IMG/VR virus record: IMGVR_UViG_3300028800_000125
Span: 1 to 51,746 of that record
Length of the DNA: 51,746 bases
Reading direction: 5' to 3' (one strand)
Source: a virus
The notes below the pieces were generated by a model. That model worked only from the letters and a program-made list of their open reading frames with translations. It was not told where the DNA came from and searched no databases. Below, in pieces: positions 11,520 to 27,994 of this stretch (within the stretch, counting starts at the first letter, position 1; the number at the start of each line of letters is the position of its first letter). The position numbers and the translations under genes are program-made.

Positions 11520-11570
11520 TAGCAGGACGCGTGCCAAGTTTGATTAGTTTTGGCGTGGCTCTGTGACAGC
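11520..11570 (-). promoter_or_regulatory. Composite sigma-54-type promoter with upstream GCTGTCACA box
   Basis: On the minus strand GCTGTCACA (11570-11562), exactly 24 bases, then TTGGCACGCGTCCTGCTA (11537-11520). GG and GC are 12 bases apart, as sigma-54 needs. The -12 element CTGC departs from TTGC by one base. The predicted start near 11510 is followed at once by hairpin GGCAAT-TCCC-ATTGCC. It would drive 10885-11442. The upstream box overlaps the 3' end of gene 11544-11786. The same box and spacing occur at 19609 and 26485. Confidence 0.75.
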
Positions 11571-13324: not shown

Positions 13325-13515
13325 GGCAGTTTAGTTTTGAATGCTTCGGGGAATTGTTTTCGAGCTTCTTTTTGGGAGATATGGCCGGCTGAAAACTCGG
13401 TATCTGTCCAAGACCTAAGCCATTCACCATAGCGCCAAAACCAATGTTCGCCTTTTGCGTTTAGCCTGTACAACTTACCATTATCTATCTGATAACTAAC
13501 TTTGTTTGTTTTCAT
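13321..13515 (-). CDS. Small hypothetical protein
   Basis: 64 residues, rich in Trp and Tyr in the first half (FWRYGEWLRSW) with a helical KEARKQFPEAF end. The start at 13515 overlaps the stop of the sigma-54 activator gene as ATGA, so the two are translationally coupled. Coupling makes it a candidate partner or modulator of the activator. No family recognised. Confidence 0.65.
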   Translation of the reverse strand: MKTNKVSYQIDNGKLYRLNAKGEHWFWRYGEWLRSWTDTEFSAGHISQKEARKQFPEAFKTKLP

Positions 13516-14303
13516 AATTCTCTAAAAAGTTCCCATCTCCTAATAACCGACTCTAACTCCCTAACATTGCCGGGGAACTCATGGGTTTTTAGCAACGCTA
13601 GTAGTTCTTCGTCCTTAGTAAATAACTCCACGTCAGGACGACGCTCGCGTAGAGGTTTGATGTTTAACTCGAATGTCGCAAGGCGATAGTATAGGTCGGA
13701 GCGGAATCTCCCTTTAGCCACCAGCCTCTCTAAGTCCCCATGTGTAGCTGCGATTATTCTACAACGTACGGGTTGTTCGATATTGGAACCAACCACTCGG
13801 TAGCGCCGAGTCTGGATGACTCGGAGAAGTTTCGGTTGGAGAGTTATCGGCATGTCAGCTATCTCGTCGAAGAATAGTGTTCCGTCGTTCGCATGGGAGA
13901 TTAAACCCGCGCGGTTATCTACTGCTCCGGTAAATGCTCCGCGAGTGTGGCCGAATAGTTCAGACTCGAAGAGCGTATCGGTTACGGCGGTCATGTTAAC
14001 TGCGACGAGATTGCCCTTCCTAGGGCCGTGAAGGATACTAGCAACTAGTTCTTTGCCAGTTCCGCTTTCGCCGCGAATCACTACACACTCGTCGCGCGGA
14101 GCTAGTTTGAGTGCGCGCGCTTTCATAGCTAGGCAGTCGGGGTCGATGGATTTAAACGACTCCTGTGCGAGAATCCACCTAGCTTGCTCGTTGAGGTCGG
14201 GGATACTACCCCGACGGAGTAACTCTAGTATTCTCGCCGAGGCGATGTCGCCACGGGCGAGAGCTAGAGTGAGTTCTGGGGTTAGTGGAGTGGGGGAGTC
14301 CAT
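13512..14303 (-). CDS. Sigma-54 enhancer-binding AAA+ activator, minimal (no receiver, no HTH)
   Basis: 263 residues. It matches the AAA+ core of NtrC/PspF-type activators, which use ATP to remodel the closed sigma-54 RNA polymerase complex. Walker A GESGTGKE is at 78-85, the sigma-54-contacting GAFTGA loop at 122-127 within ELFGHTRGAFTGA, Walker B TLFFDE at 142-147, a sensor I-like AATHGD at 185, arginine-finger region FRSDLYYRL at 200-208 and sensor II GNVREL at 245. Residues 1-55 are a short helical N terminus, not a receiver, GAF or PAS domain. The lid between 225 and 243 is shorter than usual, and the protein ends at 263 with no Fis-type HTH. It should be constitutively active and need a partner, the N-terminal helices or high dose for targeting. 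Sigma-54-type promoters elsewhere in the genome are its likely targets. Confidence 0.9.
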   Translation of the reverse strand: MDSPTPLTPELTLALARGDIASARILELLRRGSIPDLNEQARWILAQESFKSIDPDCLAMKARALKLAPRDECVVIRGESGTGKELVASILHGPRKGNLVAVNMTAVTDTLFESELFGHTRGAFTGAVDNRAGLISHANDGTLFFDEIADMPITLQPKLLRVIQTRRYRVVGSNIEQPVRCRIIAATHGDLERLVAKGRFRSDLYYRLATFELNIKPLRERRPDVELFTKDEELLALLKTHEFPGNVRELESVIRRWELFREL

Positions 14304-14308
14304 TTAGG

Positions 14309-14701
14309 TTAGTCCTTAACCAGCTCCAGAAGTTTAACCTGCGAAGCGAAGAGAGTTCCGGGGACAATTGGTTGGATTCTGCAACTCTTAGAACGGTTGA
14401 ATCCGAGAGTTTTCCAGAATTTTTCTACTTCATAAACCAAATCCGAAATATACTTCTGTGAACTAACTCTACGGACTTCGCATTTATAGATGGCTTCGGG
14501 GTAGGTGTTATTATTAGCAAAACTCTTCGCGTTCTCCAATGTATCGAACACTAGAAGTTTTGAGTTCTTAACTAGCGGACTGACCCACTCGTTTAACTTG
14601 TAAGTTACAGCCCATTGATCGGAGTTATCCCAAGTGCTTGCTCGGCATGATTTTAGCGTTCCCGCTACCACGACTTTGTACGCTATCTTTGGTGTTTTCA
14701 T
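14309..14701 (-). CDS. Hypothetical protein upstream of the sigma-54 activator
   Basis: 130 residues, alpha/beta, soluble, not recognised. It lies five bases before the activator gene, so the two are probably co-transcribed. The leader is A-rich (ends AAAAATG) without Shine-Dalgarno. Confidence 0.65.
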   Translation of the reverse strand: MKTPKIAYKVVVAGTLKSCRASTWDNSDQWAVTYKLNEWVSPLVKNSKLLVFDTLENAKSFANNNTYPEAIYKCEVRRVSSQKYISDLVYEVEKFWKTLGFNRSKSCRIQPIVPGTLFASQVKLLELVKD

Positions 14702-14718
14702 TTTTGTTTATTTCTAGT

Positions 14719-16422
14719 TTAGTTTGTTAACTGCAACCGCTCCATTCTATCCTCTTCATCTAGTCCCTCTCCCGTCAGGGAGTCGGAGTCATCTGAACTA
14801 GATAAATCATCACTAGTGTCGTCGGCGTTCGCGTGCTCTGATTCGGCCTGTGCCTCTGCTACTTCATCTGCGTCGAGACGCTCGCCAATTTGTTCTACGA
14901 ACGTATCCACGAATTGCTCTTTAGCCGTCACGGCTTTAGAGAGACATTTGATTTTAAGCTCGACACGGATTTTAACTGCGTCCTCGATGGTATTAGCATA
15001 CCAGAGAATCTCTTGGGTAGTTGCGGAGAGCGAAGTTAGGCGATGCCCGCGTCCTAAGGCTTGAACTAGGTCAATAGCACTCCATGTTGGAGGAAGGATT
15101 ATATGGCGAGGTTTCGTCGATTCTCGATCATGGTGAAGGGAAATGCCTACCCCGCCCGACTTCATAGTGAATAACAGGATGTCTCGCTTACCCGTCTGGA
15201 AGTCCCTAACCATTGCCGCGCGAGTCTCTTGATCTTGCCCGCCCATAACTAGGGCAATTCGATTCTCGGCTACTCCGCGACGTTCTATTAGCATACGGCG
15301 AACACAGAGTAGGGTATCTACGAAGTTGGATGCTACGATTACAGCTTTCTTGTCCATGTTAAGAACTACTCGGTCACAGATATGTGGGACACGGAGAATT
15401 TCCGCTCCCTGTTGCATCTTTTGCATCTCTACTAGGAAATGGATAGCTGAGAGTTCATCGCGCGCTTTACGCTTGTTTAGATTCTCAATCAGCTTGGCTA
15501 CGATTTTATCATAGGCGGCTTTCTCTTTCTCGTCTTTGAATAAGATAGAGACGCACTTAGTGTGAGCGGGGAACTTGAACCGGACATTCTTTAGCTCTAC
15601 GATGTACGGAGTCAGTTCTTCGCGAAGCCGTTCAACTGCGCTAGGGGCATAAGCACTAGGTTTTTTCGGGTCTGCTATCCATTTGAGAATACGCCCACTA
15701 GTCTCTGGCGAAGCCGGGACAACGGGGTTATACTTAGTTCTTACCTGAAAGCGTTCTAGTAGAGTAGTCGCATCCTCGCAGCGTTGAAACGGCGTAGCCG
15801 ATGCGAAGATAGATTTAACGAAAGCGGGAATAGCACGAACCACCGCGCTTTGTTGGGATTTTGGATTCTTTAGAACTTGACACTCGTCACACTTAACTAG
15901 CGCGGGGAGCATTTGGGGATTCCAAATAGGCATTGGCCCGGAGGGGAGTTCTACCCAAGTGACATACATCGCGCCGAGACTAGTTTTAATCTCTGAGTAG
16001 CTCATGACGTGGACATAGGGCGTAAGCCCATACTGATTTACAACTAGCATAGTTTGGGATTTAACTGACTTCGGAGTTAGCCAGAGGACGTAGAAGGGGT
16101 TCACAGAACCCTCTGGTTTAGTTAGCAGGTTCTTTTCCAGCATTACGCGCAGCGCCGCACAAGCCATATACATCTTGCCTGTTCCAGTCCCCGCGCGGAG
16201 TAGAACTCCATTTTGTGTCCACTTTTCAGTGAGTATGTCCGCGTCTTTAACTGTGCGGATGTCCTCTACTACTTTATCGCCGACAATCTTCCGCGTAATC
16301 ACTTCCGTGTAACACTCTTTGCGGTCATAAACTGGCGTGGTTAGACGCGAGACTAACTCCGCGCTGGCATCGGATTGCCAGTCGAAAGGGAGGATTTTAG
16401 GGGAGAGAGGAGGGAGGAGCAT
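14719..16422 (-). CDS. Superfamily 2 DNA helicase (SNF2/DEAD-like)
   Basis: 567 residues. Motif I is GTGTGK at about 80, motif II DECQ (a DEAH-type variant) in KCDECQVLKNP, motif III SATP, then FTMKSGGVGISLH and motif VI QALGRGHRLTS with both arginines. This is an ATP-driven DNA or protein-DNA translocase, likely to remodel replication forks. The last 50 residues are very acidic (Asp/Ser/Glu-rich), which may bind basic proteins or mimic DNA. It sits upstream of the sigma-54 activator in the same operon. Confidence 0.88.
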   Translation of the reverse strand: MLLPPLSPKILPFDWQSDASAELVSRLTTPVYDRKECYTEVITRKIVGDKVVEDIRTVKDADILTEKWTQNGVLLRAGTGTGKMYMACAALRVMLEKNLLTKPEGSVNPFYVLWLTPKSVKSQTMLVVNQYGLTPYVHVMSYSEIKTSLGAMYVTWVELPSGPMPIWNPQMLPALVKCDECQVLKNPKSQQSAVVRAIPAFVKSIFASATPFQRCEDATTLLERFQVRTKYNPVVPASPETSGRILKWIADPKKPSAYAPSAVERLREELTPYIVELKNVRFKFPAHTKCVSILFKDEKEKAAYDKIVAKLIENLNKRKARDELSAIHFLVEMQKMQQGAEILRVPHICDRVVLNMDKKAVIVASNFVDTLLCVRRMLIERRGVAENRIALVMGGQDQETRAAMVRDFQTGKRDILLFTMKSGGVGISLHHDRESTKPRHIILPPTWSAIDLVQALGRGHRLTSLSATTQEILWYANTIEDAVKIRVELKIKCLSKAVTAKEQFVDTFVEQIGERLDADEVAEAQAESEHANADDTSDDLSSSDDSDSLTGEGLDEEDRMERLQLTN

Positions 16423-16425
16423 AGG

Positions 16426-16605
16426 TTAATGAAGTACAATAACACTAATCTCTGTCCATCGGCTATACTTGATCACTTCTAGCTCTCGATTGTCTTTAGC
16501 GTAGAAGTAGTGCTCGTCTAAGCCGGATTTATACGAGACTTCTGGATGGATTCTAGTCCACCCATGCGAGAGCAGTAGGGTTTGAATTTCGGGGAGGGAT
16601 TTCAT
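16426..16605 (-). CDS. Small hypothetical protein, 59 residues
   Basis: ATG at 16605 (MKSLPEIQTLLLSHGWTRIHPE) to TAA at 16426, ending four bases before the helicase start. Leader ends ATAAACTATG, the genome's preferred start context. Not recognised. Confidence 0.6.
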   Translation of the reverse strand: MKSLPEIQTLLLSHGWTRIHPEVSYKSGLDEHYFYAKDNRELEVIKYSRWTEISVIVLH

Positions 16606-16645
16606 AGTTTATTGGGTGTTTAGTTTTAAGTTAATTCTCTTTAAT

Positions 16646-16669
16646 CGGCTATCTCGTTAAAGATAACCG
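16646..16669. repeat. Nine-pair hairpin in intergenic gap
   Basis: CGGCTATCT and AGATAACCG pair over nine positions (one G-T on the minus-strand RNA) around a 6-base loop, between the genes ending at 16681 and starting at 16605. No T run follows; an RNA processing or attenuation element is possible. Confidence 0.4.
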
Positions 16670-16680
16670 AGTGAAGGGAA

Positions 16681-16848
16681 CTAGTAACGCTCTACGCAGT
16701 TTTGCTCGAAACTATCGAATGCCTTTCGCCAATTATTCCACCATGCCGCTTGCATAGTGTAATGCGGCTTAGTTCCGAACTCGAAATACATCCGAGTCTT
16801 CTCCGAGAGTGTCGCGTTGTTCCATACCCATCGTGATATTTTCTTCAT
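16681..16848 (-). CDS. Small Trp-rich hypothetical protein, 55 residues
   Basis: ATG at 16848 (MKKISRWVWNNATLSEKTRM) to TAG at 16681. Trp- and Arg-rich, likely helical. Its leader ends GCAAACTATG. Not recognised. The following gap to 16941 (about 90 bases) holds only small hairpins. Confidence 0.6.
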   Translation of the reverse strand: MKKISRWVWNNATLSEKTRMYFEFGTKPHYTMQAAWWNNWRKAFDSFEQNCVERY

Positions 16849-16940
16849 AGTTTGCTTAGTTTAGTCTTGTTTGTTAATGTTTAGTTGCTAGGAAATTGAC
16901 TCTAACCGAGAACCACTTCGTGCCTCGCCTTCGGCTCGAA

Positions 16941-17219
16941 CTAAGCTAATTCTGTTAGCCTGTCTGTTTCGTTAATACTGCCGCCCTTACAATGTATCCA
17001 TGATTTCATGCAATTCATGTAACCTTGTTTATCTTTACAATAAAGTCTAACATCTGAACATTCTGTCGAGCGTAATTTAGTTATTTGTGCTCGGTATGCT
17101 GACATGGCAAACTCTTTCGTGTTAAATTCATGCTCTGTCTCTTCGTCGCTAATACTAGCACATGAAACCACGACCCATTTGATCGGTATCATTTCGCCAT
17201 TTCCACAGTCTCTTTTCAT
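16941..17219 (-). CDS. Small Cys-containing hypothetical protein
   Basis: 92 residues with five Cys spread along the chain and an alpha/beta pattern (IKWVVVSCAS, FAMSAYRAQITKL). No clear metal motif. Leader ends ACAAACTATG. Unknown function. Confidence 0.6.
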   Translation of the reverse strand: MKRDCGNGEMIPIKWVVVSCASISDEETEHEFNTKEFAMSAYRAQITKLRSTECSDVRLYCKDKQGYMNCMKSWIHCKGGSINETDRLTELA

Positions 17220-17232
17220 AGTTTGTATTTGT

Positions 17233-17691
17233 TTAGTTAGTTGGTTGAACCGTCAGAGAAAGTTTAAGCCCGTCGAATATCGTGCTGATTTTCTCCTCGT
17301 TACAGTCTTTTCCGAAGATAACTAGGTTAACTATTTCAGTAGTTAAGCCGGTTTTGACGAAGTGTTTCATGATCGCGGCGCGCTTGGACGCGATTAGATC
17401 CGCGCGTGCGATATCCGCTTGGCGAAGTCGTTCCGATGTCTCTTTTGCCTTGCGGCGCACATTGTCGGTGATCTCCCAGTCTTGGCGTGACCATAGACGG
17501 GAGTAGCCAGTGCGGCAATCAGGGAGTATTTCGGACTTCCAGTTAATCGTATTCGGGGAGTTCTCTAGGTGAACTAGTGAATCAGCATCTTCAATAGAAG
17601 CAAATAGTTCAACTAGACTCGCGGGGATTTCGATATAATCTCGCTCCCGCATGATTAATGGGAGTAGTTTGGATAGTTCAGATTTTAGCAT
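17233..17691 (-). CDS. Helical hypothetical protein under a -24/-12 promoter
   Basis: 152 residues, mostly helical and charged. A Leu-rich N terminus is followed by WSRQDWEITDNVRRKAKETSE, which looks coiled-coil. It is the first gene downstream of the sigma-54-type element at 17738-17755, with a leader of about 37 bases. No recognised domain. Confidence 0.65.
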   Translation of the reverse strand: MLKSELSKLLPLIMRERDYIEIPASLVELFASIEDADSLVHLENSPNTINWKSEILPDCRTGYSRLWSRQDWEITDNVRRKAKETSERLRQADIARADLIASKRAAIMKHFVKTGLTTEIVNLVIFGKDCNEEKISTIFDGLKLSLTVQPTN

Positions 17692-17737
17692 AGTGTATTA
17701 GATTGTGACAGCGGGAAACGCTGGTGAAGCCCTTAGA

Positions 17738-17755
17738 GAGCATTCCCCGTGCCAA
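17738..17755 (-). promoter_or_regulatory. Sigma-54-type promoter element
   Basis: Minus-strand TTGGCACGGGGAATGCTC, with GG and GC 12 apart. Predicted start near 17728, followed by hairpin CAGCG-TTTCC-CGCTG. It nearly repeats the -24/-12 core at 19642 (TGGCATGGGGAATGCT). It lacks the GCTGTCACA box 35 bases upstream; that same 9-mer instead lies downstream at 17714-17706, overlapping the hairpin. It would drive 17233-17691. Confidence 0.65.
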
Positions 17756-17786
17756 GTGAGGTTAGTTGAATGGGGTTTTAGTTAGT

Positions 17787-18053
17787 TTAATTAACAAATA
17801 TCTTTTGCTTGTTAGAGATAAACCAAACTGAACCGGCGTTAGAGTAGCAAGTATTGTAAAGCCGATAAAGCTTGCCATTGAAGCTAATCTTATAAACTGA
17901 CGTTAGCTTTGCTCCATAACCCGAACGTGTCTGTTGTAATCCGCGCTTTTGCCAAGCAAGCGGTGATTCAAGTAAATCACTTATTTCGTTTATATTCAAG
18001 CAAGCATAATCAAGTTCGCCTTTTATAATATCATTTGAAGTGAATAGTTTCAT
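17787..18053 (-). CDS. Small hypothetical protein
   Basis: 88 residues, beta-rich C-terminal half with repeated aromatic residues (KISFNGKLYRLYNTCY). A/T-rich coding. Leader ends TTAACTATG. No family recognised. Confidence 0.6.
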   Translation of the reverse strand: MKLFTSNDIIKGELDYACLNINEISDLLESPLAWQKRGLQQTRSGYGAKLTSVYKISFNGKLYRLYNTCYSNAGSVWFISNKQKIFVN

Positions 18054-18242
18054 AGTTAATTATGTTCTATTAGATGTCTGAACGGCCGGGGCCGAACGGG
18101 TTAGTGAAATACTCCTTCATTGTAGCTGTTGTCTGTTTCGTTATCGTTCATTTGTTTTAAGTCTAACAGTCTAGTTATTGGCTAGGCTGCTAGAGTTAAA
18201 AGACAGTGGTTAGTTACTCTCCACTGTCATTGAACCGACAGG
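18054..18242. other. Intergenic region with terminator
   Basis: 189 bases between two minus-strand genes. It holds the terminator at 18196-18228, a GC-rich palindrome CGGCCCCGGCCG around 18074-18085, and a possible 16-codon ORF from the ATG near 18150 that I cannot support further. Confidence 0.5.
18196..18228 (-). terminator. Intrinsic terminator after gene 18243-18803
   Basis: Minus-strand GACAGTGG, 11-base loop, CCACTGTC, then TTTTA. It ends the first minus-arm transcription unit, which fits the separate promoter at 17755 for the next genes. Confidence 0.7.
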
Positions 18243-18803
18243 TTACTCCGCACTCGCTTCCGCGTCGATCTGCGCATTCAACTCCGCAATTTTCACGGCC
18301 ATAGCTTGCAGCTTCGTGGCGAACTCAACCGGGTTAGCCATATTCGCTGGATTCGCGGCGTACTCTGTCATCTCTTTCGTGAGCCGCTTGGCTTCACTAG
18401 CCTTGCCACTACGCTGGCGCGTGATTTCGTCAATAGTCGAGACGTACGCGCGGAGCGCAGTGAGTTTCTCCGCATCGGTGAGAACTTTCGGAGTCTTGCC
18501 AGTCGCGGGACTAGTGACTTGCAAAGATACCATCGCCTTGTCGAAATCCGCTTGGAAGAACGCCCGGAACGCGTCGAAACCGCGAAAGAACGTTAGCAGA
18601 TTCTTACCCGTAGCAGAGTAGTCTTCTACTTTCTTCACACTCTTATCCGCTTGTACCACTTCGCTAGTCACGAGCAGCTCGCCGAAATCCACCGTATAGA
18701 ACACTTTCCCCGCTCCGCCCTTGCGGCCTAGGGTAGTCTCTTTAGTCACCGGGAGGGTAAACCCCTCGTGAATTACTGTCTCGTTAGTCTTGGTATCATT
18801 CAT
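18243..18803 (-). CDS. First minus-arm gene; probable abundant Ala/Lys-rich protein
   Basis: 186 residues. A short Thr/Glu N terminus is followed by TLGRKGGAGKVFYTVDF, then a long helical part rich in Ala, Lys and Glu. No enzyme motif. It is bounded by its own terminator and preceded by -24/-12-like elements at 18885 and 19149, so it is probably a separate, strongly expressed unit. The RKGGA motif and size resemble 10885-11442. A DNA-binding or host-takeover role is possible but not shown. Confidence 0.7.
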   Translation of the reverse strand: MNDTKTNETVIHEGFTLPVTKETTLGRKGGAGKVFYTVDFGELLVTSEVVQADKSVKKVEDYSATGKNLLTFFRGFDAFRAFFQADFDKAMVSLQVTSPATGKTPKVLTDAEKLTALRAYVSTIDEITRQRSGKASEAKRLTKEMTEYAANPANMANPVEFATKLQAMAVKIAELNAQIDAEASAE

Positions 18804-18867
18804 AGTATTGTGTCTTGTTTTGAGTCGTTTAGTTGTTATCCGGCTTTGTCCGCCGTTGCTCTAACAG

Positions 18868-18885
18868 TAGCTAGTCATATGCCAA
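18868..18885 (-). promoter_or_regulatory. Weak sigma-54-like element upstream of 18243-18803
   Basis: Minus-strand TTGGCATATGACTAGCTA. GG-GC spacing is right, but the -12 element is AGCT rather than TTGC. Predicted start near 18858 is followed at once by hairpin CGGC...GCCG (18841-18855). Listed because position and hairpin match the stronger elements. Confidence 0.4.
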
Positions 18886-18938
18886 CCACTTCACGCTCAA
18901 TTCCACTAGCTTAATACCCTAGAGTGTAAACCAATCCG

Positions 18939-18956
18939 ACGGCACGGGACTTGCTT
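18939..18956 (+). promoter_or_regulatory. Possible sigma-54-like element, plus strand
   Basis: ACGGCACGGGACTTGCTT has GG-GC spacing of 12 and a good TTGC, but C in place of T before GG. It points toward the terminase operon across about 730 non-coding bases. No GCTGTCACA box upstream. Chance is possible. Confidence 0.3.
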
Positions 18957-19001
18957 CACTCCTCTAACACCCTCTAATTGAGCCACTTGCGCGGGATTTC
19001 C

Positions 19002-19036
19002 CGGAGTGTAAAGTTTTCCCTTCATTTTACACTCCG
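19002..19036. promoter_or_regulatory. Palindrome CGGAGTGTAAA...TTTACACTCCG, operator candidate
   Basis: Eleven perfect pairs around 13 bases. A half-site copy AGAGTGTAAA lies at 18921-18930. The pair stands 40-150 bases upstream of the minus-strand element at 18885, a usual distance for enhancer sites of sigma-54 activators. It could equally form an RNA hairpin. Confidence 0.5.
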
Positions 19037-19131
19037 CGCTCTGCGCGACAAAGTGTCCGCTCTTGAGTCATTAGCTGAAATAGGACGACAGTCCGCTAGT
19101 TAGCTTAGCTAGTGTACTAGAATGGGACATA

Positions 19132-19149
19132 TAGCATCCCTCATGCCAG
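19132..19149 (-). promoter_or_regulatory. Sigma-54-type promoter element directed to the minus arm
   Basis: Minus-strand CTGGCATGAGGGATGCTA differs from the plus-strand core at 19642 at only a few spacer positions and shares TGGCATG and ATGCTA. Predicted start near 19122, followed by hairpin CTAG-TGTA-CTAG at 19109-19120. A palindromic operator-like site lies 41-52 bases upstream (19190-19201). Confidence 0.6.
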
Positions 19150-19184
19150 CCACAAAGTGGCTAGGGCTAGTGAGTTACTTAGAA

Positions 19185-19314
19185 TTGACGTGATTCATCA
19201 CACCCTCTGACATTAGCTCTCATCATCATCACACTACTTATCTCACCTACCTCATAGGTGAGGCGACAGGACGTTAGACGGGGGGGGGTACCGGCTTGTG
19301 ATGAATCACGTCAA
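19185..19314. repeat. 18-bp perfect inverted repeat, each arm containing a palindrome
   Basis: Arms 19185-19202 (TTGACGTGATTCATCACA) and 19297-19314 are exact reverse complements. Inside each arm, GTGAT-TC/GA-ATCAC is itself a dyad, as expected for a dimeric regulator site. The dyad centres are 108 bp apart. Between them are hairpin CTCACCT...AGGTGAG (19242-19262) and G9. Whether it works as DNA operators, a looping pair or a cruciform or RNA stem cannot be told from sequence. Confidence 0.75.
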
Positions 19315-19608
19315 TAGCCTCTAACCTACCCGTCTCGATTTCTGGACACTAGCATAGCTAGCGCTTCGCGTGACTCAATAGTAGTGGTTCTTAACTCTAC
19401 TATCACCTAGACTAATGATTAGTTCAACTCGTTCTAACCATTCGATGTTCTAATCTCCACTAACCTAGTCGTGGCTCTAGCCTACCGGCGCCGCCTAGTT
19501 AATTAATCCAGCATAGCTGACCTACCCACCACCCACCAGAAACAGAAGCGCGATTTCGAACTATGGGAGTCTCTCGAAATGATAAATTTGTGGTATTCAA
19601 CTAACCAC

Positions 19609-19659
19609 GCTGTCACATGGGTAGGATAGTGGAGGGGAATATTGGCATGGGGAATGCTA
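19609..19659 (+). promoter_or_regulatory. Composite sigma-54-type promoter of the structural operon
   Basis: GCTGTCACA (19609-19617), exactly 24 bases, then TTGGCATGGGGAATGCTA (19642-19659). The predicted start near 19669 falls in hairpin CTACC-TAAAA-GGTAG just before the ATG at 19674, so the first gene would have an almost absent leader. The 20-30 kb plus arm begins here, so this is the natural late promoter. Confidence 0.75.
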
Positions 19660-19673
19660 CCTAAAAGGTAGTT

Positions 19674-19859
19674 ATGCTAAGTTATTCTAAATTGCAAGAA
19701 CAACTACGACAGGAGGGGTGGAGTGATACAGCTATCGCTATGGTGAATCGCTCCGCCGCAGTGGTGGATTTAGCAAATCAAGTAAAGAATCAAATCAGTG
19801 GAATCTTAGCAGAACCACCAAAGTACAGGTGGAATGGAGAGATTAAGTTACCAGAATGA
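19674..19859 (+). CDS. Small hypothetical protein at the head of the late operon
   Basis: 61 residues, helical first half. The stop overlaps the next gene by four bases (ATGA). The ATG lies about five bases from the predicted transcript start, so either it is nearly leaderless or translation starts at a later ATG (for example the MVNRSAAV start near 19740). Function unknown. Confidence 0.55.
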   Translation: MLSYSKLQEQLRQEGWSDTAIAMVNRSAAVVDLANQVKNQISGILAEPPKYRWNGEIKLPE

Positions 19860-20239
19860 ACGCCACGAATCAACAGATAGTTGAACTCGCGAAGAGGGGA
19901 TTCTCTAGCGAGCAGATCGAGCAGGCTTTAAGCCTAGCTCCGGGCGCAGCTGCGTCTATTCTCTCGAAGGACAATGAAGCGATGAGGGCGGTGGAGAAGA
20001 ATGGTCTGGAGGGCAAGTTTGCGAATCTTCAAGAGGCGGCATTGGAGACGTTGAAGTTCAATCTAAATGATGATAACGGAAGTGTGAGACAGAGGGCGGT
20101 GGAGTTGATTTTGAAGCAAGGTCTGGGATTGATGAAGCCGAAGGTTCAACAGACGACGGTGAATAATAACCTAGTGTTCTTAGTCGAGAGAGCGGCAAAG
20201 GCGAAGTCGATAAGAGAGGCTACGGTGGTGGATGTTTAA
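19856..20239 (+). CDS. Probable terminase small subunit
   Basis: 127 residues. An N-terminal helical segment QQIVELAKRGFSSEQIEQAL has the look of the small-terminase HTH. A central part with ALETLKFNLNDDN and VRQRAVELILKQGL is helical oligomerisation-like. It lies before terL with one small gene between. TerS recognises phage DNA for packaging. Assignment is by fold pattern and position. Confidence 0.65.
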   Translation: MNATNQQIVELAKRGFSSEQIEQALSLAPGAAASILSKDNEAMRAVEKNGLEGKFANLQEAALETLKFNLNDDNGSVRQRAVELILKQGLGLMKPKVQQTTVNNNLVFLVERAAKAKSIREATVVDV

Positions 20240-20435
20240 TAAAGTCATAACTAAACTAGCTCTATGGTGGATAGGAAGAGTTAAGAAAGCTAAAGTGGAT
20301 ACTACGGAAGGGTTTGAGAAGTTTAAGGTTAAGCAGCTTCCCACGTCTGTAGGAGAGGCTAACTTCAAAATTTTTGTTGCTTATGAAGCTGGAAGGGCCA
20401 GACTGTTAAGAGAACAGACTATTGTGGATGCGTAA
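20232..20435 (+). CDS. Small hypothetical protein before terL
   Basis: 67 residues. A hydrophobic-amphipathic N terminus (ITKLALWWIGRV) precedes a basic polar part. The start overlaps the small-terminase stop by eight bases, and TerL begins two bases after. Not recognised. Confidence 0.55.
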   Translation: MFNKVITKLALWWIGRVKKAKVDTTEGFEKFKVKQLPTSVGEANFKIFVAYEAGRARLLREQTIVDA

Positions 20436-20436
20436 T

Positions 20437-22122
20437 ATGAACCCCGCCGATTCAACTCAACTGTCCCTCTCTGACTTGTGGGAGAGTCCGTATGATATGC
20501 TCTTGTTTCTCCAAGATGACTTTCACTCGGAGGTTAACCCGACTAGGTTATACAAGTGGCAGATTCAGTTCATGCTAGACTTTGCTAGCAAGGATTGGAC
20601 TGCACAGGTGCCGTTTAAAGCAGCTGTGAGGGCGGCGAATGGGAGTGGCAAAGATAGATACCTGATCGCAGCGTGTATAGTCTGGTTCTGTGTGAAGTAC
20701 TCGGAGAGTGTGGCGATTGTCACTTCTGCCTCTGGCACCCAGCTAGACCGACAGACTTATACATACATAAAACAACTAGCAGATTTAACGAACACGAAGT
20801 GTGGAGATGGGGTTTGGAAAGTGAACTATAGGCATCTTGAATGCTTAGTCTCTCACTCGACTATAGAGTTGTTTGTCACCGACGAGAGTGGTCGTGCAGA
20901 AGGGTGGCATCCGATTGTCCCCAATGGTAAACTAGCAATATTCACTAGCGAAGCAAAATCAATACCAGATGAAATCTTCACCGCTCTCTCTCGTTGCACT
21001 GGCTTCACTCATAGAGTTGATGTCTCTTCACCGGGACTCCCAATGGGATTCTTCTTTAACACTTGCTCAAGTGCAATCAATCGTAAAACAATACATTCAG
21101 TTAGCGAAGCACTTGAGAGAGGAAGTTGGGTCGAATACCACGTTACTGCCTATGACTGTACTCACTTGTCAGATGGTACCTATATCGAGGAACTAAAACG
21201 AAGTATGCCCGGCGGGGAGAGTGGAGCAGCGTTCAAGTCTTGCGTTCTTGCTGAGTTTGGTACGACTGACGAGATGACGGTTATACCATATCAGCATATT
21301 TGGAAGTGTGTGAATCGGTCGGGTTCGACAGTAGGATGGCTCTCTGAACCAACTAATACCGGCGGTCTCGACCTATCAGCCGGTGGAGACGAGACAGTAC
21401 TCTCAGTTAGGAATGGAAATAAGTTACTCAAAGTAATCGGCTTTCGCTTTAACAACACACAAGATACAGTTAATTTTTTAGTGGAGGAATTTAAGAAATA
21501 TGAACTCGACAGACCAAACAGTTTCATTTACGCTGACGCGGGTGGTCTTGGCAAGCCCATTATCGACCAACTGCGAAGCAAGGGATGGACGAATATACGA
21601 TATGTACTCAATCAAGCTAAGGCGTATAATGATAGAGTGTATCTCAATAGAGGCGCAGAGATGTGGTTTAAATTTGGAAAACTTCTTGAAACAGGTGAAA
21701 TCTGGTTGGCTAATGACGATAGGCTTATTCGTCAACTGGCTACTAGATACTACAAGATCACCGAAGGAAATAAACATAAACTTGAATCCAAACTTCAAGC
21801 ACGTGCGGCTGGAAGACCCAGTCCTGATAGAGGCGACTCCGTTGTGTTATGTTTCAGTAATTACAAGTCCAAACTCGAAGTAGATGATTCAGGGATAGTA
21901 AAGGAATGGAGTGAAGAGGAACTCGACGCAGCGAAGGGGAAAGAGGTAGAGATTGAAGTTCAACGATTCGATCTACGCAAGTGGTCGTCGGACTCGTATG
22001 ATGAGGATAGGACTAGAGGGTATGCCAAGACCTGTGCAAGTAGAGATTTCAAACGGCTCAAAGAGCAAGTTAAGCGGTTAAATATTAACAATCAAAATAA
22101 GAAAGAGTTGGTGATAACATGA
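20437..22122 (+). CDS. terL: Terminase large subunit
   Basis: 561 residues from the ATG at 20437; the TTG at 20422 would extend into the previous gene. The packaging ATPase shows Walker A AANGSGKD, a beta strand ending SEAKSIPDE that occupies the Walker B and coupling position, and SPGLPMG. The RNase H-like nuclease has Asp in GLDLSAGGDE, YADAGG and a final RGDS. It cleaves and pumps DNA into the prohead through the portal. The last codons overlap the zinc-ribbon gene as ATGA. Confidence 0.9.
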   Translation: MNPADSTQLSLSDLWESPYDMLLFLQDDFHSEVNPTRLYKWQIQFMLDFASKDWTAQVPFKAAVRAANGSGKDRYLIAACIVWFCVKYSESVAIVTSASGTQLDRQTYTYIKQLADLTNTKCGDGVWKVNYRHLECLVSHSTIELFVTDESGRAEGWHPIVPNGKLAIFTSEAKSIPDEIFTALSRCTGFTHRVDVSSPGLPMGFFFNTCSSAINRKTIHSVSEALERGSWVEYHVTAYDCTHLSDGTYIEELKRSMPGGESGAAFKSCVLAEFGTTDEMTVIPYQHIWKCVNRSGSTVGWLSEPTNTGGLDLSAGGDETVLSVRNGNKLLKVIGFRFNNTQDTVNFLVEEFKKYELDRPNSFIYADAGGLGKPIIDQLRSKGWTNIRYVLNQAKAYNDRVYLNRGAEMWFKFGKLLETGEIWLANDDRLIRQLATRYYKITEGNKHKLESKLQARAAGRPSPDRGDSVVLCFSNYKSKLEVDDSGIVKEWSEEELDAAKGKEVEIEVQRFDLRKWSSDSYDEDRTRGYAKTCASRDFKRLKEQVKRLNINNQNKKELVIT

Positions 22123-22442
22123 ATAAATACACTTGTCCCGAATGCGGTAATGTGGTGGTGGTTCGCTCTAATGCAGCGGAACTCCAGAACTACAAAGACA
22201 CCTGTGGTCAGACTGTTACGATGAAGTTAGGAGTGGTGGATGTGGCCAAACCTACAGCGAAGGCGAATGTAGTCCCCGCGCCGGTGGTTCAACTAAAGGC
22301 TGCGCCACTTCCTGAGCGGCCGCAACAGTTCAATCCGAGTCAGTCGTCGAATATTCCTAAGCAGGAACTTGTGCAAGGTCAGGTGGGTAGTACACCTATC
22401 ATCCCCGGAACTCTTAATGCAACTCTTTACCCTGCGAAATAA
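22119..22442 (+). CDS. Zinc-ribbon-like small protein
   Basis: 107 residues. It starts NKYTCPECGNVVVVR, with a CPxC pair and a later Cys, so a zinc ribbon is possible but incomplete. The rest is Pro/Gln-rich and likely disordered. It is coupled to terL by overlap. Role unknown. Confidence 0.6.
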   Translation: MNKYTCPECGNVVVVRSNAAELQNYKDTCGQTVTMKLGVVDVAKPTAKANVVPAPVVQLKAAPLPERPQQFNPSQSSNIPKQELVQGQVGSTPIIPGTLNATLYPAK

Positions 22443-22445
22443 CCT

Positions 22446-22736
22446 ATGCCATCTCCAGCAACTACTGATATGGTGAAAGGCTATGCCGATGAACCAGACA
22501 CCTCAACAAATAATGGAGGAACTAAAGAGAGTTCGGATGAGTCTGAATCCTCCGAAGGTTCGGTTGATATTACCGAAGAGTTTCAGAGAGAAGTCCAAGA
22601 GATCATCACTCCCGCGACGAAGGTCGAACTTGACTACTTGAGGAGCAAGATTATGGATAGGGAGAAGGAGTTGATGAAGAGTGAGACGAAAGCGGAGAAG
22701 TCGGGGGACTTTGACATGGAAGGAGTTCCTGAATGA
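22446..22736 (+). CDS. Acidic low-complexity protein
   Basis: 96 residues. The first 50 are Ser/Glu/Asp-rich and disordered, the rest a charged helix (VELDYLRSKIMDREKEL). It lies between terL and portal. It may be an assembly chaperone, but nothing specific is visible. Confidence 0.55.
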   Translation: MPSPATTDMVKGYADEPDTSTNNGGTKESSDESESSEGSVDITEEFQREVQEIITPATKVELDYLRSKIMDREKELMKSETKAEKSGDFDMEGVPE

Positions 22737-22939
22737 ATGACATGAAACGAGCTAATGTTGCTGGTAGACTTTATGATGAGTATTGCAAAGCTGTGGGAGG
22801 TTTAGCTTATGATGGAAAACCACTCCCTGTCTGGCATGTGTTCTACTCTGACTCGGCTAAAAGAAAACAAGCTAATGCTTGGATTCACATAGCAGGATTG
22901 GCTGAAGATATAATTAAAACAACTAAACCAAACGATTAA
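22733..22939 (+). CDS. Small hypothetical protein before portal
   Basis: 68 residues, soluble, with GGLAYDGKPLPVWHVFYSD then a helix. This sequence style occurs in small phage proteins near DNA-packaging genes. The start overlaps the previous stop by four bases. Function unknown. Confidence 0.55.
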   Translation: MNDMKRANVAGRLYDEYCKAVGGLAYDGKPLPVWHVFYSDSAKRKQANAWIHIAGLAEDIIKTTKPND

Positions 22940-22941
22940 TC

Positions 22942-24759
22942 ATGCCCGACGAAACATCAGAGGAATATATTGGTAGTCTGAAGTATGATGATTGGTCTCT
23001 CAAGATCAAAGACATCGTCTCAACTGCCCATGAGCTTCAAGATAAGTGCTTCGCTGCTCGGCGTTTACGCTGGGGAGAAGTGGATATAGAGGGTCAGAAA
23101 GCGGCTTCGCGTATTGCCCCCGATGAAATCTATATTCCCCTCCACTTAATTGATGCAAACATTCGTCGAGAACAACCATACTATGTCCAGTATGTGACAC
23201 AATCAAACAGAGCAGCGATCTTGAAGTGTGCGGATAATGTTCTACAAGATTCCTCTGCGATTGAGCATGATTTGACGGAGAGGCTTAGGTATGAGGGTTG
23301 GCAGCAACCGCTGTATGCGACGATTGATGGATTCCAGCAAGATGGTTATCGGTTCGTTGAAGTAGTTCACGACCAGTCGAAAAGTGGTGAGGTAGCTATT
23401 GAGACGATGGCTTACGGAGACTTTGGATTCATAAACGACACTAGGGATATTCAAGAGTGTGAGATTGTTTGCAGGAAATACTACTACACTAAGACGAAGA
23501 TGAAGAACTTGGCGGCGCTCGGACAGTTTGACCCCGTTCAGGTAGATAGAGTAGTTGATGGAGATAGAGTGGAGAACGGTTCGACCAGTGGGGATATGGT
23601 CGAGAAGAAAGATAAGTCATTGTATATGATCTACAAGATCATGTTCAGGAATAAGGGAGTTGTGCATGTGGCTTGGGCGAGTGATGAGAGGGGAGATGAT
23701 TGGTTGCGCGCGCCGCGTCCTTTGAGTATTGGGAGAAAGAAAGTAACTGGCCCGCCTACAGTAGTTGGAGGGCCGCCGGCTAGTGAAGATGTGTATGAGA
23801 CTAACTATCCATATGTTTTGTATCCATACATGATTTCAGAGAATGACACGACTTCTAGGCTCCCCGGTAGAGTGATACTCGATCAGGATGTACAAGAGGG
23901 CGCATCGAGTTTACTTTCTAGTTACGTCACCGCTCACAGGCGCGGAGCTGGACTCTACTTCTCGAAGGACGTAGATGATCCGAATGATGACATAGAACTA
24001 CAGAAGAATGTCTTCTTCCGCACCGGGGCGCTAATCAACTCGAAGATTAAGCAGTTTCAGTTGAATCCGCCGGATGCTAGTATGATGACGGCAATTCAAT
24101 CTCTAATCACCGAGAACATGGCTGAGATGAGTCAGGTGAACTTCGCAGCGAATAATCGGAAAGACAGTAGGAAGACTGCGACTGAGATTAGTGCTGCTTC
24201 GCAGAGTGCTTCGACTCTTACGACGGTTCAGGTAGTTCTCTTCTCGACTGCGTTGAGGAAGACGTATCAGTTGATGTTTGATGTGATTAAGTCTAGGGTG
24301 ACGGCGGGGCTGATTAAGGTTAGCCCAGAGCTAGCTCAACTCTACGCGATGAATTGGGTTGTGAAACCGGCGGGAGATGTGGATGTGATTGAGCGTCAAC
24401 AGTTAGTCTCACAGATGATGGCTGCGTGGCCGGTGATTCAAGGAACTCCGGCGAACATGGCCTTTCTCTGTGATGCACTAGAGAAGATGTTTCCTGAGAC
24501 TGCACAGAAGTATGTGCAGATTCTATTACAGGCTCAGGCTCAGCAACAGCAGGCTCAACAAAGTCAGCAGGCGCAGTTACAACAAGCGGCGATACAAATG
24601 GCACAGAAGATTGTTGGGCTTAGTCAACACCCAGAGATGTTCTCGGATGTTGGGAAACAGAATGCACTTCCACAGATTCAACAAGCTGCGAGTCAGATTG
24701 AACAGCTTCAACAACAGATGAGCCAACAGAGTCAATCACAAGGAAAGAAACAACAATGA
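22942..24759 (+). CDS. Portal protein
   Basis: 605 residues, in the usual place after terL and before scaffold and capsid. Features in order: helical N terminus, a beta-rich part with FINDTRDIQECEIVCRKYYYTK (wing), the long helical crown and stem region with NNRKDSRKTATEISAASQSAS, a motif typical of podovirus portals, then a C-terminal Gln-rich tail (residues 540-605). It forms the dodecameric DNA channel and docks terminase. The long Gln-rich crown or barrel recalls P22-like portals. Confidence 0.85.
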   Translation: MPDETSEEYIGSLKYDDWSLKIKDIVSTAHELQDKCFAARRLRWGEVDIEGQKAASRIAPDEIYIPLHLIDANIRREQPYYVQYVTQSNRAAILKCADNVLQDSSAIEHDLTERLRYEGWQQPLYATIDGFQQDGYRFVEVVHDQSKSGEVAIETMAYGDFGFINDTRDIQECEIVCRKYYYTKTKMKNLAALGQFDPVQVDRVVDGDRVENGSTSGDMVEKKDKSLYMIYKIMFRNKGVVHVAWASDERGDDWLRAPRPLSIGRKKVTGPPTVVGGPPASEDVYETNYPYVLYPYMISENDTTSRLPGRVILDQDVQEGASSLLSSYVTAHRRGAGLYFSKDVDDPNDDIELQKNVFFRTGALINSKIKQFQLNPPDASMMTAIQSLITENMAEMSQVNFAANNRKDSRKTATEISAASQSASTLTTVQVVLFSTALRKTYQLMFDVIKSRVTAGLIKVSPELAQLYAMNWVVKPAGDVDVIERQQLVSQMMAAWPVIQGTPANMAFLCDALEKMFPETAQKYVQILLQAQAQQQQAQQSQQAQLQQAAIQMAQKIVGLSQHPEMFSDVGKQNALPQIQQAASQIEQLQQQMSQQSQSQGKKQQ

Positions 24760-25016
24760 CCGAAGAACAACAGAAAGAGGCCGCGAGGTCTATACTAGCG
24801 ACACAGCATCAACTCTGGCAGCAGAACGCAGTAACAAAGCATCTAGTCGAGATTCTCGATGGGAAGATTGCGAAGTTTGAATCTTGGCTCTCGGATAAGA
24901 GTGTAGCTGCAACGGAAGTAGAAGTGAGAAGCTTTCTCGCTCAGCTACGAGAGCAGAAACAGGTTAGGAAACTTTTAGTAGAAACAACAACGTTCGTGAA
25001 AGAAGTGATTAAGTAA
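24756..25016 (+). CDS. Small helical protein after portal
   Basis: 86 residues, nearly all helix with Gln, Glu and Lys, coiled-coil-like. It overlaps the portal stop as ATGA and lies before the scaffold-like gene. Possibly an assembly factor; not recognised. Confidence 0.6.
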   Translation: MTEEQQKEAARSILATQHQLWQQNAVTKHLVEILDGKIAKFESWLSDKSVAATEVEVRSFLAQLREQKQVRKLLVETTTFVKEVIK

Positions 25017-25017
25017 T

Positions 25018-26232
25018 ATGGAACCTACAATAGAAACAAACAAACCAGTAGTTAATTCACCGGCTCCAGCTAGTTCGGTTAATACTCCTAGCCGACCGGC
25101 TTCGACCGCTCCTAGTAGAGCTACGGCTCCGACGGCTAAGCCGCCGACGGCCGAGGCTATGGCGGTTAAGTTCGATTCAGCGGATGCAGATGATCTAGAT
25201 ATTCCGGGCTATACTCCAGAGGATGCTTCGACAGGGAAGACTGTGGAGACAGCTAAGCCTACTCCGGCTAAAGAGACCCCACTACCTGTCGAATCCGCTA
25301 GGCAAGTTGGTACTCAAGTAGAGCCATCGGTTAAACCAGCAGATAAGATAGTAGAAACTCCGGCTAAGGTTAATCCCCTACTCGGCGAGCCGGTTAAGCC
25401 TAGTGATAAGACGAGAGATTACACAGGGTTTTCCCCGGAGGAGGTGACTCAACTGAAACAGATGTCGAACACGGCGTTTGACTTCTCTGCGAAGATAATC
25501 AAGGAGAATAAGGAACTTGCGAAGTTGAAGGACTCGACTTATCTCCAATCGCCGGAGGCGTATAGGTTAGACCCGGCATACACTAAAGCTGCGGAGGATG
25601 TAGACTATCTACGCGCGGAGGCGCAGATTTGGAAGAACCAATTAGTTAATATCAAGACGGGAAAAGAGTGGAGTCCGTTACTCGGTTGGGATAAATCTGG
25701 TAAACCAGTATTCGACACTAAGCGTGCTCCGGGAGAGATGGATGAAGAAGACGTGCGTTCGAGAATGCAACAGTGTGAGGGGTCTGCTCAACAGATGGCG
25801 GGACAACTCCAACAGATGCAACAGAGCTATGCGAATAGGGTGGCGACAGACAACTCTGCGATTGATGAAGTCCAGAAGAGTAAGTTCAGTTGGGTAGCTG
25901 ATCCTGCGCTCGCGGAGAAGACTGTGACGATTCCTAATCTAGGAGAGCGTTCGATTAAACAGATTACGAATGACTTTAAGGAGTTACTCCCTGCATATCA
26001 CAGAGGGAGTAAACTCGCAGAGCTTGGGGCGAATATGTTTGCTGCACTTCAGGTCTACGCTAGTGAGATTAGGAATCTCCAAGCACAGTTGCAGATCACC
26101 GAGACTAAGAGAGCTGATGCACTCAGGGCAGAGCCGACCAGTTCAGATAAACCTGCGAATGCCGGAGGCGGAGTTGCGAAGAGTAAATTCGGTGGGCCGG
26201 CTAGCTTTGATCTTGGTGGACTTCCTGACTAG
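25018..26232 (+). CDS. Scaffold-like protein
   Basis: 404 residues between portal and capsid. The first 110 are Pro/Ala/Thr-rich and disordered; residues 145-180 and 235-280 are Gln- and Leu-rich helices likely to form coiled coils; the C terminus ends with a Gly-rich KSKFGGPASFDLGG tail. This profile fits an internal scaffolding protein for prohead assembly. Assignment by position and composition. Confidence 0.7.
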   Translation: MEPTIETNKPVVNSPAPASSVNTPSRPASTAPSRATAPTAKPPTAEAMAVKFDSADADDLDIPGYTPEDASTGKTVETAKPTPAKETPLPVESARQVGTQVEPSVKPADKIVETPAKVNPLLGEPVKPSDKTRDYTGFSPEEVTQLKQMSNTAFDFSAKIIKENKELAKLKDSTYLQSPEAYRLDPAYTKAAEDVDYLRAEAQIWKNQLVNIKTGKEWSPLLGWDKSGKPVFDTKRAPGEMDEEDVRSRMQQCEGSAQQMAGQLQQMQQSYANRVATDNSAIDEVQKSKFSWVADPALAEKTVTIPNLGERSIKQITNDFKELLPAYHRGSKLAELGANMFAALQVYASEIRNLQAQLQITETKRADALRAEPTSSDKPANAGGGVAKSKFGGPASFDLGGLPD

Positions 26233-26237
26233 AGTTT

Positions 26238-26483
26238 ATGAAATTCAAGGTACTCATGTGGATTATCCGACTGTTCGGATATACAGTTCAAGTTCGTGCG
26301 AAGCATGATATTTGTACCGTACAACAAGTCACAGGATGTATTGATATATCTAAAGATGTGGATATTCTGGAAACAATTAGTTACAGTCCTGAAGATCACT
26401 TTAAGATTCTGTCTTGGCGTAATAGTGGGCCTAGAGATGAGCTAAACAGTCCTCTGCTAGAAATTCCTATCAGACCAAACTAA
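26238..26483 (+). CDS. Small hypothetical protein before the capsid promoter
   Basis: 81 residues. A hydrophobic, basic N terminus (MKFKVLMWIIRLFGY) could be a membrane anchor; the rest is polar. Its stop lies at the start of the capsid promoter region (GCTGTCACA begins at 26485). Unknown function. Confidence 0.55.
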   Translation: MKFKVLMWIIRLFGYTVQVRAKHDICTVQQVTGCIDISKDVDILETISYSPEDHFKILSWRNSGPRDELNSPLLEIPIRPN

Positions 26484-26484
26484 C

Positions 26485-26535
26485 GCTGTCACACCTCCAC
26501 GCTAGTGGTGCCTAATCTTGGCACGCAAATTGCTA
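26485..26535 (+). promoter_or_regulatory. Composite sigma-54-type promoter of the major capsid gene
   Basis: GCTGTCACA (26485-26493), exactly 24 bases, TTGGCACGCAAATTGCTA (26518-26535). This is a near-perfect sigma-54 consensus (TGGCACG, four bases, TTGC). Predicted start near 26545, inside the hairpin 26541-26569. It gives the capsid gene its own strong late promoter within the operon. Confidence 0.85.
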
Positions 26536-26540
26536 CCATC

Positions 26541-26569
26541 CGGGTAGATAGTTAAACCCTATCTACCCG
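26541..26569 (+). other. 11-bp hairpin at the 5' end of the capsid transcript
   Basis: CGGGTAGATAG, loop TTAAACC, CTATCTACCCG, perfect. No T run follows, and it lies at the predicted start of the transcript, so a 5' stabilising hairpin is more likely than a terminator. If transcripts reading through from upstream pass it, it could also act as a processing site. The 114 bases up to the capsid ATG hold nothing else clear. Confidence 0.6.
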
Positions 26570-26683: not shown

Positions 26684-27994
26684 ATGCCCGCATTTTACGA
26701 CAAACCTGCACAGTTCGCTAACGCTGCTGTGGAAGACACAGACAGGTTTCAGAAACTTCCCTTCTACCTCGTTAAGAACGAAGTAGCACAGTTCCCTAAG
26801 TGGAATGTGTTTGAACAACTTCTTTCGGATATTGACTGGCAACCGAATGAAGGTAATGTGATGAAAGGCGTGACTCCACAGGGTTCTCCTGTTGGTCGTG
26901 CTCTGTTCTTCCCGAATGCCATCACTACCGCGCCGAATAAAGACATCTATCAGGTGTCTGAATCTGTTGAAACGGCTATCGTGTACATGCACGATTATGA
27001 GTCGTATCAGTTTAACTTCATTCCTTCGTTCAACTCCTTCTGGAAGACCTATCTTCAGTTTGCGAATAAAGACATCGTGGAGAAGATTGGTTGTTCGAAT
27101 AACCAGTTTCTCGAAACTCAGATGTTGCAGTCCGCGACGTATATGTATCTGTGTGGTAGTGGATTGATTAGTGGTTGTCCCACCGGGACAATGAACGCTG
27201 CTATGACCGCGGCGGGTTCTAAGACTGCTGCGTGGTTGGTTGGAGTGACTCAGCCGGGTAATGGAACTGGGGTTCTTCAAAATCTCACGTTGCGTGATGT
27301 TTACAACGCCGCGTTGTCTCTTCAAGAAGACTTGGCGGCACCTCCATTCGAGAAGGCCCGGAACATGCCAGTGGATAATGAGGGCCTGAAAGGTAAGTAT
27401 GTTCTCGTTACCTCTACAGAGGCGTGGATGAACTTCATGTTTGACCCGGACGTTCAGACTCTTAAGCCGTTGAATCTCGACATTCTGTTCAACGAATTCA
27501 AAGGACTCCTCTTCGGTACCACTACTGTTAAGTTCAATCGCTTTCCGCTGCGATTCTCGCTGGCGAATGTGAACGACCCGAATGGTAATCTTCTCTACGC
27601 TGCTGGAACTCCGATTCCCCCGGAAATCTACGACCAGACTGATTCTAAGCGGAAACCTAATCCGTATTATACTAGTTTGATCTCTGCTCCGTATGAGGTT
27701 GCGTGGATGCTAGGTGCGGACTTTGGTAAGTCTATTAAAGTCGGCCCTCCGCCGAAAGAGTTTGCGACGACGAACATGGCGAGTGAGAAGTTCTACTCTC
27801 TTCGGTGGAATGGTGAAGTTAAACTGACTGACCAAGTGTTGATTCAGTATGCGGATGGTTCGTATGATTTGAATCATTACGGTAAGCAGTTGAAGTTCAT
27901 CAGTGAGTTGACTCATGGTTATCTCCCCGGTGAACGGCGCTTCGCATTCCCAATGGTGTTTGAACGTAAACGCCCGACGCGCCTTCTCGCCTAA
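26684..27994 (+). CDS. Major capsid protein (probable)
   Basis: 436 residues. It follows portal and scaffold, has its own strong promoter and a terminator one gene later, and has the size of a coat protein. Sequence features: NAITTAPNKDIYQVSESVETAIVYMHDY (E-loop-like region), Gly/Ala-rich middle and a beta-rich C-terminal half with AGTPIPPEIYDQTD. I did not identify it by family motif; an HK97-like fold is inferred. The leader has no Shine-Dalgarno. Confidence 0.8.
   Translation: MPAFYDKPAQFANAAVEDTDRFQKLPFYLVKNEVAQFPKWNVFEQLLSDIDWQPNEGNVMKGVTPQGSPVGRALFFPNAITTAPNKDIYQVSESVETAIVYMHDYESYQFNFIPSFNSFWKTYLQFANKDIVEKIGCSNNQFLETQMLQSATYMYLCGSGLISGCPTGTMNAAMTAAGSKTAAWLVGVTQPGNGTGVLQNLTLRDVYNAALSLQEDLAAPPFEKARNMPVDNEGLKGKYVLVTSTEAWMNFMFDPDVQTLKPLNLDILFNEFKGLLFGTTTVKFNRFPLRFSLANVNDPNGNLLYAAGTPIPPEIYDQTDSKRKPNPYYTSLISAPYEVAWMLGADFGKSIKVGPPPKEFATTNMASEKFYSLRWNGEVKLTDQVLIQYADGSYDLNHYGKQLKFISELTHGYLPGERRFAFPMVFERKRPTRLLA

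Follow-up and report, generated by a model that had tools for sequence, protein, structure and literature searches.

A phage-encoded AAA+ activator and matching promoters point to a sigma-54 switch in a lineage of phages

Introduction

Can a phage place its own genes under sigma-54 control by means of an activator that it encodes itself? Transcription with sigma-54 relies on machinery of a class of its own, under the control of activators that are driven by ATP; its promoters stay closed until an AAA+ ring remodels the sigma factor. To our knowledge, phages have not been known to use it for their late genes. The question is raised by the IMG/VR virus record IMGVR_UViG_3300028800_000125 (51,746 bases; "the window" below means this whole stretch), which encodes an AAA+ protein of the sigma-54 activator type and carries five sequences matching sigma-54 promoters. 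The window represents a phage genome of about 51.6 kb in nearly complete form: in line with this, its two ends share about 128 bases (127 identical). In a greedy map of open reading frames (ORFs), 91.6% of it is coding. Our analysis indicates that this phage very probably runs a sigma-54 switch with its own bare AAA+ activator and matching promoters.

Results

A bare AAA+ domain of the NtrC type

In a profile search the activator ORF matches PF00158 with an E value of 1.3e-55 and 188 bits, against a curated cut-off of 20.2. A first-pass annotation of this DNA had described a 263-residue AAA+ protein with intact GAFTGA, Walker and arginine-finger motifs, and all of these could be located: GESGTGKE (Walker A), GAFTGA, FFDEI (Walker B) and FRSDLYYR (arginine fingers). 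In an alignment of 22 activator sequences, residues G81, G83, K84, D146, E147, D203 and R207 are invariant and R201 nearly so; Walker A, Walker B and the FRxDLY arginine-finger segment are kept among the aligned relatives, and the loop that contacts sigma-54, GAFTGA in the window, reads GAFTGA or GSFTGA in 22 of 22. The AlphaFold (AF2) model of the protein (pLDDT 92.5) was placed by Foldseek closest to FleQ (E 9e-24), with the AAA+ domains of NtrC4, NtrC1, FlrC and PspF also matched; the top matches are NtrC-type AAA+ domains only, and the sequence search agrees.

The earlier annotation did not make the point that the activator lacks a DNA-binding domain. In the window and in the 22 aligned relatives the chain stops directly past the lid helix, with no helix-turn-helix (HTH) DNA-binding domain, and the 263-aa protein also has no regulatory receiver domain. 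It departs in this from the canonical enhancer-binding proteins, which possess a C-terminal HTH; with no domain of its own for binding DNA, it probably acts in solution or by way of a partner. Phage activators measure 230–379 aa (28 sequences, stop to stop) versus 462–658 aa for 30 sampled Verrucomicrobiota host activators, and one well-supported branch of the tree splits the phage from the sampled host proteins. All 22 lineage activators match PHROG family phrog_7998 (best 3e-46), which PHROGs annotates as 'unknown function'. The activator operon also contains a 73-aa ORF (12201–12422) with an HTH-like stretch, SLNEWARLISLKPTLLRKRLSRGWSVEE, and no Pfam match, a weak lead as a candidate DNA-binding partner of the activator.

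Five sigma-54 sites, all intergenic

The strict site pattern TGGCAYG-N5-TGCW (that is, TGGCAYG-N4-NTGCW, with GG-N10-GC) has five exact matches in the window, each within about one base of a -24/-12 element reported in the first-pass annotation, which had also proposed a comparison with shuffled sequence. Such a comparison (400 dinucleotide-preserving shuffles) gave a mean of 0.06 matches and a maximum of 1. In a weighted scan with a hand-made sigma-54 matrix the same five sites are the five top-scoring places genome-wide, and none of them contains a single coding base.

Two of the sites precede packaging and virion genes, one before the structural operon and one before the capsid gene, in keeping with the earlier annotation (Table 1). 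The first of these units runs in the order 61-aa ORF, small-terminase-like gene, large terminase (TerL) and probable portal; most relatives likewise have sense-strand sites upstream of TerL, at variable distance. The 436-aa protein encoded behind the second site is, on the strength of its predicted structure, an HK97-fold major capsid protein: Foldseek matched the model (pLDDT 72.9) to the coats of N4, DEV, GP4 and HK97, those of N4 and DEV being closest and the N4 coat the best match (E 1.4e-10, probability 1.00).

The remaining three sites face leftward units. Roughly half the lineage has homologues of the 185-aa protein, placed behind the sigma-54 promoter next to the activator, and in relatives the orthologue of the 11521–11536 promoter, together with its gene, directly follows the activator gene. 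No minus-strand terminator is predicted between the 17739–17754 site and the activator gene, so positive feedback, in which the activator would act on its own operon from this promoter, is possible.

Transcripts from sigma-54 promoters are expected to start about 12 nt past the GC. Where the capsid and terminase transcripts are predicted to begin, or immediately beyond, there are short perfect hairpins (26541–26569 and about 19655–19670), which are possible 5' stabilisers. Between the predicted terminase transcript start and the ATG of the 61-aa ORF (19669–19674) there are no more than about 5 nt, and the terminase mRNA may therefore be nearly leaderless.

Table 1. Predicted promoters, upstream elements and genes of the window discussed in the text.
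Feature	Position	Strand	Evidence or context
Sigma-54 promoter, predicted, TGGCATGGGGAATGCT	19643..19658	+	Exact match; before 61-aa ORF/TerS/TerL/portal operon
Sigma-54 promoter, predicted, TGGCACGCAAATTGCT	26519..26534	+	Exact match; 165 bp upstream of major capsid gene
Sigma-54 promoter, predicted, TGGCACGCGTCCTGCT	11521..11536	-	Exact match; upstream of 185-aa gene
Sigma-54 promoter, predicted, TGGCACGGGGAATGCT	17739..17754	-	Exact match; upstream of 152-aa gene and leftward run helicase, 130-aa gene, activator
Sigma-54 promoter-like, TGGCATGAGGGATGCT	19133..19148	-	Exact match; ~330 bp upstream of 186-aa gene
Upstream element GCTGTCACA	26485..26493	+	34 nt before T of TGGC (26519 promoter)
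Upstream element GCTGTCACA	19609..19617	+	34 nt before T of TGGC (19643 promoter)
Upstream element GCTGTCACA	11562..11570	-	34 nt before T of TGGC (11536 promoter)
Fourth GCTGTCACA	17704..17712	-	Downstream of 17754 site, inside predicted leader
Phage sigma-54 activator, bare AAA+ domain, 263 aa, GAFTGA loop	13512..14303	-	PF00158, AF2, Foldseek
Major capsid protein, 436 aa, HK97 fold (predicted)	26684..27994	+	AF2 model, Foldseek PDB
185-aa protein, first gene behind 11521–11536 promoter	10885..11442	-	blastp to downstream genes of 12 relatives
Large terminase subunit (TerL)	20422..22122	+	tblastn to Akkermansia phage terminases, 3e-42
Portal protein, probable	22942..24759	+	Weak SU10_portal match, E 0.0077, below cut-off; position; conserved in relatives
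Helicase	14719..16422	-	phrog_62, 5e-25; same leftward run as activator, two genes upstream

Sites and activator occur together across the lineage

Searches of IMG/VR with the activator or the capsid protein as single sequences gave no match. Alignments were required to draw relatives from it, and a terminase alignment brought in 80 related phage loci. Among 50 terminase-relative records, 45 have an activator above the family cut-off and 42 have exact TGGCAYRNNNNNTGCT sites, while a reversed control pattern produced 3 hits over all records. When genomes were made non-redundant (capsid proteins less than 90% identical), a sense-strand site was found no more than 350 bp upstream of the capsid gene in 32 of 35, as compared with 6.5% of random windows; by the same measure the controls gave 1/33 for TerL, 2/35 for the portal and 0/34 for the gene before capsid. 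The 32 capsid promoters, when aligned, read TTGGCACG.A..TTGCTA, and the information in their logo falls only on TGGCA..../TGC, which is the textbook sigma-54 logo.

A separate scan, anchored on the activator, covered 46 non-redundant loci, 44 of them with enough flank. A site lies within 250 bp past the activator stop codon in 40 of these 44 loci and within 1 kb in all 44. At the same time, 15 terminase relatives without the activator, including three Akkermansia phages, have 0 sites. The first-pass annotation had suggested looking for linked activator and promoter pairs in related phages; there are dozens of them, and in kin without the activator the two are absent together.

Several further matches were considered. 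The annotated phage records matching the activator were mostly bacterial contigs deposited as phage. One of our loci (L001; MT121960.1, Phage DP SC_2_H4_2017, from human gut) encodes an activator of about 304 aa without a DNA-binding domain and with an altered Walker A motif, GETGTDKE; because it has no sigma-54 sites, we rejected it as a second example of the switch. Another match, close to the Verrucomicrobia prophage L117, proved to be a complete NtrC-type regulator that belongs to the host and has both receiver and HTH; it was therefore excluded from the counts. A lineage phage contig with a capsid-gene sigma-54 site (L115, JACTVG010000014.1) was found in a Methanoregulaceae (archaeal) metagenome-assembled genome, where it is probably mis-binned.

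Terminase kinship and host sigma-54

Of 19 terminase kin in bacterial genomes, 14 are in Verrucomicrobiota/Lentisphaerae (Akkermansia, Verrucomicrobia subdivision 3 and Lentisphaerae). Sigma-54 (RpoN) is present in 114 of 115 Verrucomicrobiota genomes, the assignment of that phylum as host resting on terminase kinship; the first-pass annotation had named a host clade devoid of sigma-54 as a ground for refutation, which is not the picture in this likely host phylum. A genome scan with lineage-specific terminase patterns returned no relatives, and so gave no sign of integrated members.

A short upstream element at fixed distance

An enhancer common to the whole lineage was sought upstream of the aligned capsid promoters and none was conserved, and we therefore compared promoters within single genomes. 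In 4 of 21 genomes, 7 to 9 of 10 columns are identical, against a maximum of 6 in 400 mixed-genome controls. The window contains four copies of the 9-mer GCTGTCACA in 51.7 kb, each lying no more than about 50 bp from a sigma-54 site and pointing the same way, and three of its five promoters have the element at exactly -34. The nearest relative (L005) has AGCCAC at exactly -32 of its three corresponding core promoters, TTTAGAAGAT stands at -18 in two further close relatives, and AGAAGTTA at -15 in another pair; the genomes with such fixed-distance elements are the window, L005, L021, L024 and L053. Some members of the lineage thus appear to use a fast-evolving accessory element at a fixed distance.

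Discussion

In the mechanism that we propose, host sigma-54 polymerase would bind the phage -24/-12 promoters as closed complexes, unable to start alone. The phage AAA+ protein, made from an earlier leftward operon, would then form a ring, hydrolyse ATP and remodel sigma-54 through its GAFTGA loop. With their promoters opened in this way, the packaging/portal operon, the capsid gene and a small number of further units could be transcribed. Lacking a DNA-binding domain, the activator would most likely serve every phage sigma-54 promoter simultaneously while free in solution, perhaps with help from a protein bound at the short upstream element. A precedent for such action is the isolated AAA+ domain DctD250, which fires many sigma-54 promoters without an enhancer (PMC3844500).

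A number of observations weigh against this proposal or set its limits. The closest named phages, those of Akkermansia, have neither the activator nor the sites, and activator and terminase distances agree significantly but weakly (Mantel 0.26, 16/5000). In one distant activator-bearing group (L055-L065) exact sites are few and the -12 element takes the variant form TAGCA; its capsid-gene site is kept as the variant TGGCATATCGTTAGCA, and host sigma-54 or the activator may differ there. MT121960 has an activator and no exact sigma-54 sites. The hosts are likely Verrucomicrobiota, an assignment by terminase relatedness that reaches only to the level of phylum, and the switch is proposed here from sequences and predicted structures. 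As to timing, the first-pass annotation had spoken of a late switch driven by sigma-54: the linkage of activator and promoters across the lineage upholds the sigma-54 part, whereas sites are also present at three leftward units, and one such site lies ahead of the operon that encodes the activator, so that not every target is clearly late.

It is also conceivable that the promoters are mainly driven by host enhancer-binding proteins sensing the state of the host, the phage protein serving elsewhere, for example on host sigma-54 genes at takeover. Such host proteins are numerous, with 3 to 15 strong matches per Verrucomicrobiota genome, and a bare AAA+ domain would, like DctD250 (PMC3844500), fire host sigma-54 promoters too. 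However, presence and loss of the sites track those of the phage activator, nearly all relatives have a site immediately behind the activator gene, and no common upstream enhancer sequence is visible, all of which makes this explanation very improbable. We give practically no credence to the idea that chance or base composition produced the -24/-12 sequences and that the AAA+ protein is a stray host gene: although the window is CTAG-rich and in parts repetitive, and short motifs do arise by chance, this reading is excluded by the shuffles, the reversed-pattern controls, the gene-position controls and the tree, in which phage activators stand apart from the sampled host ones.

A different question is how the activator finds its promoters. 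Rather than being free in solution, it could be brought to each promoter by a DNA-binding partner, from phage or host, that sits on an upstream element particular to the lineage, which in the window would be GCTGTCACA. The adjacency of all four copies to sigma-54 sites, three of them at the same exact distance, the elements at other fixed distances in the nearest kin and in other clades, and the four genomes whose internal agreement exceeds that of the mixed-genome controls are consistent with recruitment. On the other hand, 17 of the 21 genomes have no clear fixed element, two of the five window promoters have no GCTGTCACA upstream, and the element could equally be a repressor site or a contact for the C-terminal domain of the polymerase alpha subunit (alpha-CTD); we regard recruitment as possible, if rather unlikely. 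Returning to the sigma-54 switch itself, its boldest form would hold for an extensive lineage of virulent phages infecting Verrucomicrobiota-type hosts: their usual late switch would have given way to a sigma-54 switch whose bare AAA+ activator also fires the host sigma-54 regulon, feeds back on its own operon through the promoter at 17754 and takes its guidance from upstream elements that evolve fast and stand at fixed distances, a combination that we offer as speculation and consider doubtful as a whole.

Other features of the genome

Between the leftward and rightward units is a large non-coding region that contains, beside a G-run, a perfect 19-nt inverted repeat (19184–19202 and 19297–19315, 94 nt between the arms; ATTGACGTGATTCATCACA), possibly an origin or a regulator site. 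A family A DNA polymerase is split over two overlapping ORFs in different frames (1203–2123 and 2063–3691), which match adjacent parts of phrog_17 (positions 628–979 and 993–1236); a natural split, a programmed frameshift and an assembly error are candidate explanations. An Rfam search of the window found no RNA family.

Comparison with known systems

A phage system of this kind, spread over a lineage of uncultured bacterial viruses, would be a new class among phage gene-expression switches and provide a natural minimal activator for mechanistic work. It would also assign a likely function to phrog_7998 and supply a sequence marker for recognising such phages, which are predicted to need host rpoN. 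We found no phage sigma-54 late switch in the open-access literature, most subscription papers lying outside that search.

With the enhancer-binding proteins NtrC, FleQ and PspF the phage protein shares the AAA+ fold, Walker A and B, GAFTGA, arginine fingers and -24/-12 targets; it differs in being phage-encoded, in having neither receiver or GAF domain nor C-terminal HTH, and in its predicted targets, which are virion and packaging genes. Helicobacter FlgR and Chlamydia CtcC are natural cellular activators without a DNA-binding domain, acting on sigma-54 promoters genome-wide under two-component control. The DNA-binding domain is missing in both cases, while the phage proteins have no receiver domain either. 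Phage-encoded factors that redirect host RNA polymerase to late promoters include Mu C, P2 Ogr, T4 gp55/gp33/gp45 and N4 SSB, but these use sigma-70 or a phage sigma and none that we know of remodels sigma-54 by ATP hydrolysis. The engineered DctD250 (PMC3844500) is likewise an AAA+ domain alone and enhancer-free, but a laboratory truncation, whereas the phage activator is a natural, lineage-wide viral design. The individual parts are known, and it is their use across a lineage as a phage switch that appears to be new.

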